Below are positions 20,380 through 21,967 of a stretch of DNA of 21,967 bases, piece by piece. This stretch comes from a virus. Numbering within the stretch: position 1 is the first letter of the stretch; every line of letters starts with the position of its first letter. A program made the position numbers and the translations under genes. The notes beneath the pieces are model-generated. The model was not told the DNA's origin. It saw nothing but the letters and a program-made list of their open reading frames with translations, and did no database searches. The stretch covers positions 1 through 21,967 of IMG/VR virus record IMGVR_UViG_3300043469_000036. The stretch is one strand, 5' to 3'.

Positions 20380-20599
20380 TTTAAGAGATCACATCTTTAT
20401 GGCTCTCGAGAGATTGAGCGATGAAACATTAACAACAGACCAGGTGAATGTGGAGGTAGATAAAGCTAAGGCAATATCTCAGCTCGCAGGTACTCTAATC
20501 CAATCTGCTAAGGTAGAGATTGATTTCATTAATGCTACAGGTGTAATGGAGTCTCAATCGGATCTATTTAAGTCAGTGACTCAAACTAAATTATTATGA
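20357..20599 (+). CDS. Conserved small helical phage protein
   Basis: 80 residues, predicted fully helical (LSDLRDHIFMALERLSD, then DKAKAISQLAGTLIQSAKVEIDFI). This pattern recurs in phages of Gram-negative hosts next to regulatory genes, with no assigned function that I know. It starts 23 bp inside the HNH gene at an A-rich start and ends in ATGA overlap with the DnaA-like gene. Confidence 0.6.
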   Translation: MAQNKLSDLRDHIFMALERLSDETLTTDQVNVEVDKAKAISQLAGTLIQSAKVEIDFINATGVMESQSDLFKSVTQTKLL

Positions 20600-21003
20600 C
20601 AGAACTAAAATTTTTAAAAGAACAAATTATAAAGTATAAACTAGCTACCAACTCTAGGAATAGAGCCTATGTCTATAAGAGATACTATGTAATGTACAGG
20701 CTAAACAAATGTAAGCTATCACTTAGTGAAATTGGAAGGCTTATGAATAGACATCATGCTACTGTTATTCATGGTATCAGAATGCACAGGAGATGGTCTA
20801 GGATGCATGATAAAGTATATCTCCATGAGATACAGCCATTAGTGCAAGCTGCAGATGATCTAGATTATGAGGATAAGTACAAAGTCTCAGCATTAGAGAA
20901 GTTCAATTACATAAATGTGAGGATTCAGATGCCTTGGGAATATGATAAGGTCAATAAATTCAAAGAATATATGACAGCTAAAGAACTAGCTGAAATAATT
21001 TAA
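20596..21003 (+). CDS. DnaA domain IV-like DNA-binding protein
   Basis: 135 residues. Residues about 18-64 match the C-terminal DNA-binding domain of DnaA: TNSRNRAYVYKRYYVMYRL, then LSLSEIGRLMNRHHATVIHG, the DnaA signature helix-turn-helix. There is no AAA+ ATPase part, so it cannot by itself act as a full initiator; it may recruit the host DnaA or helicase, or regulate transcription. It is the last gene of the early operon and is followed by a terminator and the AT-rich repeat region proposed as origin. The C-terminal 60 residues are acidic and not recognised. Confidence 0.75.
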   Translation: MTELKFLKEQIIKYKLATNSRNRAYVYKRYYVMYRLNKCKLSLSEIGRLMNRHHATVIHGIRMHRRWSRMHDKVYLHEIQPLVQAADDLDYEDKYKVSALEKFNYINVRIQMPWEYDKVNKFKEYMTAKELAEII

Positions 21004-21023
21004 AGCTCTTCGGAGCTTTTTTT
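21002..21023 (+). terminator. Rho-independent terminator with TTCG tetraloop
   Basis: AAAGCTC (21002-21008), loop TTCG, GAGCTTT (21013-21019), then a run of T to 21023. UUCG loops are unusually stable. The stem overlaps the stop codon of the DnaA-like gene, so termination follows directly. Confidence 0.9.
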
Positions 21024-21311
21024 GTGCTGTATAATTCCCTTACTGATATTGACTTGTATAGAATTAGAACGAAAGTACAATTCACACCCCTATACTCTAT
21101 AATATATATATTTTTATTTACAATATATTTTTAATAAAAAAAAAATTATTTTCATATTGGGGGGTGAACAGTTTTTAGAAAAAAAAAGTGTTTTTTCGTT
21201 CTAATCTTCTACAGCCCAATAACAATAGGAGTTAAGACAGCACAAATAATAGCACAAAACAGCACAAATAATTTATTTTTGCACTTTAGTATCAATTATA
21301 AATTAATTTAT
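21024..21311. other. AT-rich noncoding region, candidate replication origin
   Basis: About 290 bp with no gene. ATTAGAACGAAA (21063-21074) is an exact inverted match to TTTCGTTCTAAT (21194-21205). Nested inside, TTCACACCCC (21081-21090) and GGGGGGTGAA (21159-21168) pair with one mismatch. Between them lie about 70 bp of almost pure A/T, as expected of a DNA-unwinding element. Direct repeats follow at 21237-21272. Position between a DnaA-like gene and a primase gene supports an origin. Confidence 0.45.
21237..21272. repeat. Iteron-like AGCACAAA direct repeats
   Basis: ACAGCACAAATAAT occurs exactly at 21237-21250 and 21259-21272; a third, shorter copy (AGCACAAAAC, 21251-21260) sits between. 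Spacing of start points of the AGCACAAA core is 12 and 10 bp. This could be a protein-binding array such as iterons. Confidence 0.75.
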
Positions 21312-21319
21312 TACATTTG
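21312..21319 (+). promoter_or_regulatory. Bacteroidota-type -7 box before the primase leader
   Basis: TACATTTG fits TAnnTTTG and lies 18 bp before the small leader ORF at 21337. A good -33 element at the usual spacing is not obvious: TTTAG at 21285-21289 is 22 nt away and TTTTTG at 21276-21281 is 30 nt away. Confidence 0.5.
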
Positions 21320-21336
21320 CAAACAACATAATCGCC

Positions 21337-21426
21337 ATGATAAAAAACATTAGAGAGTATAAATCCCTGCAATTCCTCCTGGCGGTTGTGTTAAGCAGGG
21401 ACTCTCACTTTTTATTTATACTATGA
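21337..21426 (+). CDS. Possible 29-residue leader peptide coupled to the primase gene
   Basis: A short frame from ATG at 21337 (MIKNIREYKSLQF ... SRDSHFLFIL) stops with TGA at 21424-21426, overlapping the primase ATG as ATGA. The same overlap joins most other genes here, so coupled translation is likely. The codons CTG, CTC, GCG and GTG are rare elsewhere in this phage. Because the same bases form a strong hairpin, the frame could be a by-product of RNA structure. Confidence 0.4.
   Translation: MIKNIREYKSLQFLLAVVLSRDSHFLFIL
21353..21406 (+). promoter_or_regulatory. Structured leader hairpin upstream of primase gene
   Basis: GAGAG (21353-21357) plus TCCCTGC (21364-21370) pair with GCAGGGA (21395-21401) plus CTCTC (21402-21406): 12 base pairs with a 6-nt bulge TATAAA on one side and a 24-nt loop. 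The loop contains CCTCCT, the anti-Shine-Dalgarno core. CTTTTTATTT follows, giving a weak terminator-like or attenuator layout 16 bp before the primase start. An alternative pairing, AATCGCCA (21330-21337) with TGGCGGTT (21380-21387), competes with it. Confidence 0.5.
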
Positions 21427-21967
21427 AAGTAACTTTTTACAAATCAATTAAGGATGTATCACCTTATCAGAATAAGGATGTAGGATTCTACCTAGATAGG
21501 ATTAAAAATGGCAAGTCTGAGCAGTTATGTAAGGACCTTAGATTCTCTACTGATAAAGAGGAAAGGAAAGCCATTAAGATGCAACTGCCTGTTGTTACTT
21601 TTGGAGGTGATTTCAGTAAGAGAAATAATGCATCTTTAAGAAAGGCATCAGGATTACTTACTTTAGACTTTGATGAGGTGCAGGATCTACCTGCTCTGAT
21701 TGTAGAACTGAAAGCTCATAAATCTATCTTTGCCTGTTGGACATCACCATCAGGCAATGGAGTAAAAGCTCTAGTCAAAATACCAATAGTACAGGATGAC
21801 AAAGAATACAAAGAGTATTTTAAGCAGATATCTGCAGTATTCAATGGAGTAGATGAATCAGGGAAAGATATTGCAAGAGCTTGCTTTGAATCTTATGATC
21901 CTGATATCTATGTTAATTTAGATGCTATTAATTATATCATTGACTATGATGTTATCCCATTTGAGAC
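21423..21967 (+). CDS. BT4734/VirE_N-type primase, 3' partial
   Basis: N-terminal domain of a Bacteroidota primase-helicase-type protein; 181 residues are visible and the gene continues beyond the window. The family pattern is present: PVVTFGGDF near 56-64, GLLTLDFDE with the paired acids at 82-85, SPSGNGVKALVKI at 108-120, and DESGKDIARACFESYDPDIY near 144-163. Proteins of this type often continue into a second primase or helicase domain, which cannot be seen here. It would prime replication from the proposed neighbouring origin. It starts in ATGA overlap with the small leader frame. Confidence 0.75.
   Translation, partial: MKVTFYKSIKDVSPYQNKDVGFYLDRIKNGKSEQLCKDLRFSTDKEERKAIKMQLPVVTFGGDFSKRNNASLRKASGLLTLDFDEVQDLPALIVELKAHKSIFACWTSPSGNGVKALVKIPIVQDDKEYKEYFKQISAVFNGVDESGKDIARACFESYDPDIYVNLDAINYIIDYDVIPFE

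Follow-up and report, generated by a model that had tools for sequence, protein, structure and literature searches.

The predicted leader of a phage primase-helicase gene

The window (the whole stretch of DNA that was analysed) is a 21,967-base virus record from a freshwater phage in IMG/VR. Near its 3' end lie, in order, a gene for a small DnaA domain-IV-like protein (positions 20596-21003; PF08299, E = 3.6e-10), a terminator, an AT-rich intergenic region of 320 nucleotides (nt), and a primase-helicase gene with an N-terminal BT4734-like/VirE_N domain (21423-21967, + strand; PF08800, E = 9e-20), which runs off the contig. The small protein corresponds to domain IV of DnaA without the AAA+ part and is possibly the phage's origin- or operator-binding protein; such a gene stands directly upstream of the leader described below in the window's clade and at loci L148, L158, L160, and L170. 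The intergenic stretch 21018-21320 contains the inverted repeats GAATTAGAACGAAA and TTTTCGTTCTAATCTTC, repeats of GCACAAATAAT, and a CCCCTATAC..CTATA motif that is also present in L158, L160, and L170, and it is a candidate origin or operator.

The sequence TACATTTG (21312-21319, + strand) matches the consensus TAnnTTTG of the Bacteroidota -7 promoter box. Since this box is placed at -12 to -5 relative to the start site in Flavobacterium psychrophilum (PMC9723704), transcription is predicted to start at about position 21324.

The RNA that would follow contains two helices, both on the + strand. The first to be noticed, here called S2, is the two-part 12-bp stem of an earlier note made from the sequence alone, and the coordinates given there are right: GAGAG (21353-21357) pairs with CUCUC (21402-21406) and UCCCUGC (21364-21370) with GCAGGGA (21395-21401), enclosing a 24-nt loop (21371-21394) that contains CCUCCU. 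A 6-nt bulge, UAUAAA (21358-21363), separates the lower and upper parts on the 5' side. The T-rich stretch reported 3' of the stem is also present, as the U-rich tail ACUUUUUAUUUAUACU (21407-21422) that extends from S2 to the primase AUG. The second helix, S1, is formed by AACAUAAUCGCCA (21325-21337) and UGGCGGUUGUGUU (21380-21392); its 8-nt core pairs AAUCGCCA (21330-21337) with UGGCGGUU (21380-21387) and can be extended to 13 bp. This upstream pairing had been described as an alternative to the stem. The pairing itself is borne out by covariation (see below), but it uses other nucleotides than S2 and is not an alternative fold. S1 and S2 share no nucleotides, and the two together make an H-type pseudoknot in the order S1a-S2a-S1b-S2b (S1, 21325-21337/21380-21392; S2, 21353-21370/21395-21406). 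Its 5' edge is 1 to 2 nt from the predicted transcript start, with S1a at about +2, and its 3' edge is 16 nt before the primase AUG. A 13-bp S1 leaves 2 nt between S1b and S2b, so that full S1 and full S2 cannot coexist; on steric grounds, the coexisting S1 is probably the 8-bp core with a 7-nt loop L3.

The pseudoknot scores -37.7, compared with a mean of -11.5 for dinucleotide shuffles, none of which (0/1,000) reaches it; the energies are stacking sums without loop terms. Nested-only folding of the leader is unremarkable (z = -1.2) because it is blind to the pseudoknot. No further pseudoknot of this layout adjoins a TAnnTTTG promoter in the window. The reverse complement of any pseudoknot scores well too, and the strand was therefore assigned from the promoter, the G-U pairs, and the direction of the genes. 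A stretch around the S2 bulge, AGUAUAAAU (21356-21364), is complementary at 9 of 9 positions to AUUUAUACU (21414-21422) beside the primase AUG, a match that is not significant alone (shuffling, P of about 0.13).

Compensatory changes in the window's clade

Near-identical leaders occur on about 50 contigs. In the covariation analysis of related leaders, which had been proposed as a check, compensatory changes were found in both S1 and S2. Variants of S1 stay paired: UCGCCA/UGGCGG in the window, CUGCCA/UGGCGG, and ACAGCCA/UGGCUGU (L013). Two more divergent types, C and D, come from relatives with a Prim-Pol-type primase. Type C has GAACAGCCAA/UUGGCUGUUC as S1 and UCCCCCUA/UAGGGGGA as upper S2, and type D has AAUCACCCU/AGGGUGAUU and CCCCUGCC/GGCAGGGG, respectively. 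Double changes affect four of the eight S1-core pairs and four of the seven upper-S2 pairs, with no mismatch in pairs 1 to 7 of either helix, as counted in a hand register that favors the structure and was used because MAFFT alignments of type C or D with types A and B misplace S1. For the same reason, the tool count on alignment A7 gives type D as unpaired in S1.

Other parts of the leader behave differently. Lower S2 (GAGAG and CUCUC) and the bulge are invariant in types A to D, and GAGAGUAUAAA and CUCUC are invariant in the types of the window's clade. Loop L2, AAUUCCUCC (21371-21379), which lies on the 5' side of CCUCCU, is not conserved and has the counterparts AAAUCUCC, AAUUCCACC, UCAAC, and AUCUUAUCAU in relatives. 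The core pattern GAGAGTATAAANCC-N(18-48)-GGNCTCTC was found in 87 stretches in IMG/VR, and among the matches listed, those checked belong to the window's group; it was found 0 times in 84,980 species genomes, and a blastn search of the leader against phage records returned chance matches only.

Judged by this sequence comparison, S1 and S2 form an H-type pseudoknot that compensatory change keeps within the clade and whose topology is kept in relatives of unrelated sequence, as described next.

The same layout in leaders of unrelated sequence

Searching with the primase matched 564 relatives, and 80 loci were taken from among the matches listed. Distant relatives (39 to 60% identity) have leaders without sequence similarity in which the parts follow one another as in the window, ahead of the replication operon: TAnnTTTG promoter, S1a, S2a, S1b, S2b, AUG. 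Across all families, S1a sets in between about -1 and +10 relative to the predicted start of the transcript. Leaders were picked solely as the stretch from the TAnnTTTG box to the first gene and were thinned at 85% similarity, which does not reach full independence; 27 of the 29 non-redundant leaders so obtained beat at least 95% of 200 shuffles, most of them with 0/200 shuffles reaching the score. Among 300 other TAnnTTTG sites on the same contigs, 5.0% beat 95% of shuffles. A score of -22 was reached by 26 of the 29 leaders and by 2% of the 300 control sites. The hand register and the pseudoknot finder are both biased toward the model, and the shuffles, control sites, and permutations serve as safeguards. 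When 15 phage records were scanned, promoter plus pseudoknot was found 12 times, compared with 0 in shuffled DNA. Eleven of the 12 matches lie at the replication operon; the twelfth precedes a VRR_NUC gene in G001, where it is a second copy of the element.

Covariation was also seen outside the window's clade. In family E (6 leaders), 114 of 114 cells are paired, and 4 of 8 S1 pairs have changed, always on both sides, the remainder being nearly invariant; 0/500 shuffles reach its covariation score, and slid controls are far lower. In the leaders of L234, L236, L248, L160, L156, and L157, every change in S1 is compensated, and L1, L2, L3, and S2 hardly vary, which suggests that the S1 sequence is free or even diversified.

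The Baltic Flavobacterium phage elemo, a cultured isolate, has the same layout before its replication operon (0/1,000 shuffles reach its score). With the same scan, no clear promoter-adjacent element was found in the cultured phages lotta8-2, FPSV-S1, Panino, phi46:1, and Leef_1. An Rfam search with the window leader, which included STAXI, preQ1, and SAM-II, gave one chance match far below the gathering score, and 19 related loci gave no family match except one tRNA. A conserved unpaired motif common to all families was not found, so there is no evident ligand site. A literature search found no description of these leaders, which is weak evidence given its partial coverage.

The leader belongs to the operon start

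The gene that follows the leader differs among phages. Near-identical A-type leaders precede the VirE_N-type primase of the window and a Prim-Pol-type primase in L068, L089, and L092, and the exchange of the VirE_N/BT4734-like for the Prim-Pol primase begins exactly at the AUG after the leader. Comparison of these three loci with the window shows modular replacement of the replication primase. In L156 to L159, the leader precedes an inserted gene family of 315 amino acids (aa), and in L278 a gene of 133 aa. The leader thus belongs to the operon start and not to one particular gene. The same phages have second pseudoknots of this layout, which lie upstream of a VRR_NUC nuclease gene at L317:2693 (G001), L256:8158, L255:5807, and L262:7685.

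The similarity of A-type leaders across exchanged primase genes could reflect recombination, and cruciform DNA likewise requires complementarity, so that chance or a DNA-level feature such as an operator or a recombination hot spot might account for the element. We consider this extremely improbable: the helices cross, G-U pairs are kept in S2 on the + strand, and the element recurs downstream of operon-start promoters, all of which favor RNA. It is also very improbable that the transcript is a primer or origin RNA, with the AT-rich, repeat-bearing intergenic region upstream as the origin. The position of the leader between the DnaA domain-IV-like gene and the primase gene, and the inverted repeats and GCACAAATAAT repeats upstream, would suit such a replication RNA, but the second copy in G001 precedes the operon of a VRR_NUC gene, the first genes differ among leaders, and the narrow range of distances to the AUG would be left unexplained.

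The 29-codon frame and the CCUCCU loop

The last bases of a 29-codon frame (21337-21426, + strand) overlap the primase start at 21423 as ATGA, as had been noticed from the sequence, and the frame might encode a coupled leader peptide in the window's clade. Of 29 haplotypes of types A to D, 25 keep the frame open and the ATGA overlap intact, including type B, in which three single-base deletions cancel one another. L090 and L006 have truncated versions, the frame of L133 stops 3 nt short, and type D lacks it; the invariant GAGAGUAUAAA falls in one reading frame in type A and in another in types B/C. Most other families, E and F included, largely lack a frame of this kind, and L235 has a similar overlapping one. 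Leader-peptide attenuation or coupling, in which ribosomes on the frame would open S2 and then start again at the primase AUG that the frame overlaps, could draw on the retention of frame and overlap in most A to C haplotypes and on L235; the frame's start codon has its first base within S1. We nevertheless regard it as improbable, since the peptide sequence is not conserved, types B and C use another frame, and the frame is broken or missing in the leaders just named. Of the stem and the peptide, the two features whose conservation in related phages the earlier note had singled out, the structure is kept and the peptide is not; the RNA is the conserved object. Within the window's clade, an additional layer of control may come from coupling through ATGA.

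Bacteroidota ribosomes do not rely on Shine-Dalgarno pairing. CCUCCU is replaced by UCUCCU in type B, by CCACCU in L039 and L044, and by unrelated sequence in types C and D. The suggested contact of the CCUCCU loop with ribosomal sequence is unlikely because the loop is not conserved among types, and CCUCCU was rejected as an anti-Shine-Dalgarno mimic on the same grounds.

Two arrangements between S2 and the start codon

In nearly all leaders, the 3' end of S2 lies 13 to 25 nt before the AUG. A U-run (a stretch of 8 nt with 6 or more T, no farther than 25 nt from the AUG) is present in 16 of 17 leaders outside family F, compared with 15% of 501 other open reading frames. S2 and the U-run together resemble the anatomy of a terminator, with a loop that is long for a classical one; a strict terminator scan (loop of 3 to 8 nt) does not list the window helix. 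In family F, the U-run is absent, and a second copy of the S2 3' strand lies beside the AUG. This second S2b copy covaries with S2a (mean of -10.1, compared with -4.6 when permuted; 0/20000 permutations). In family F (L263 to L294 and L170), L1 also contains an additional conserved hairpin, and AAAGG pairs with CCUUU within the pseudoknot. Complementarity of the start codon region to S2a was considered as a general feature outside family F and rejected, as matched pairs were no better than permuted ones.

A 5'-terminal fold might simply shield the replication mRNA from decay without any switching, and the placement of S1a so near the predicted 5' end in every family (about -1 to +10) would agree with such a stabilizer. 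This is quite improbable, as it leaves the U-run and the second S2b copy of family F unexplained.

From comparative sequence evidence, we think it fairly probable that the replication operon mRNA has at its very 5' end an RNA switch that acts in cis, formed by the leader. During transcription, S1 would form first and would then shape whether and how S2 forms. S2 would be the read-out, because it directly abuts the start codon. In the window and in most families, the terminator-like S2 and U-run, 13 to 25 nt ahead of the AUG, make premature termination the likely output; a close alternative is that the initiation region is blocked. In Flavobacterium johnsoniae, mRNA structure near the start tunes initiation (PMC6847099). 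In family F, the second copy of the S2 3' strand would occlude the start codon. Given the long S2 loop and the lack of a U-run in family F, a single output does not fit all families. The most natural candidate trigger would be a product of the same operon or the phage replication machinery, which would amount to autogenous control. For the window's clade, a further possibility is that ribosomes translating the 29-codon frame melt S2 and pass on to the primase gene by coupling. The earlier note had proposed an attenuator, a leader-peptide switch, or a structured RNA that controls the primase level; covariation supports a structured RNA, probably one that controls the operon, and the readings of the upstream pairing, the leader peptide, and CCUCCU are revised.

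Relation to known systems

The closest published system that we found is the operator of T4 gene 32, and by analogy the leader may act likewise. In T4 and RB69, a 5'-terminal pseudoknot is followed by an unstructured, UUAAA-rich initiation region that is bound by gp32, and the fold outlasts sequence divergence (PMC535899), as it does here. Both systems concern a phage replication gene, with a pseudoknot at the 5' end of the leader and a short unstructured A/U-rich stretch before the AUG; the 5'-terminal position is predicted here from S1a at about +2, covariation, and shuffles. Here, however, the helices and loops are larger, S2 and a U-run adjoin the AUG, and the first gene is a primase gene in Bacteroidota phages without Shine-Dalgarno use. 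UUAAA or UAAA repeats over the initiation region were not found in the window tail ACUUUUUAUUUAUACU.

An autogenous translational operator of this type, the purely translational version of the switch explanation, would have a DUF3127, ERF, primase, or DnaA-C-like protein bind the 5' pseudoknot and spread over the U-rich initiation region. Beyond the similar layout in T4 and RB69 (PMC535899), it can point to the operon of L068, which encodes ERF and DUF3127 proteins, and to the S2b copy near the start codon in family F. By this analogy it deserves serious consideration but is rather unlikely, since in most families a terminator is the better fit to S2 plus U-run, and the gene 32 region of RB49 reportedly has no pseudoknot (PMC535899), so that such an operator is not universal even among T4-like phages.

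The STAXI motif comprises pseudoknots near genes for SSB, topoisomerase, and antirestriction proteins (PMC2864571). The present leaders share the proximity of pseudoknots to DNA-handling genes; STAXI is tandemly repeated, whereas the leaders are usually single copy and have no Rfam match.

Intrinsic-terminator attenuators in bacterial and phage leaders have a helix and then a U-run before the first gene, as do most leaders here outside family F, but in these the helix that resembles a terminator encloses a long loop, and RNA from farther upstream pins that loop. The preQ1-I, preQ1-II, and SAM-II riboswitches are H-type pseudoknots just upstream of a start codon, and their outputs, termination or start-codon occlusion, are interchangeable. 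The leaders share the pseudoknot shortly before the start codon and would share the interchangeable outputs; unlike the riboswitches, they have no conserved unpaired ligand-binding core across families and no Rfam match. The terminator-like and second-S2b arrangements would both have their output where the first gene begins, in the manner of exchangeable riboswitch platforms.

More tentatively, and with slightly less confidence than an even chance would warrant, the leaders may be members of a widespread class of regulatory phage RNAs that is defined by topology and not by sequence: a 5'-terminal H-type pseudoknot that opens the replication operon mRNA in many Bacteroidota phages, with interchangeable outputs (a helix resembling a terminator, or a decoy strand next to the AUG), and that senses a common phage or host signal, for example, the level of a replication protein. 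To our knowledge, few structured regulatory RNAs are known in Bacteroidota phages. That the fold is kept in place while its sequence is replaced indicates strong selection on RNA topology. The leader offers a direct route to studying how Bacteroidota phages time DNA replication, and the cultured phage elemo makes it open to experiment now.
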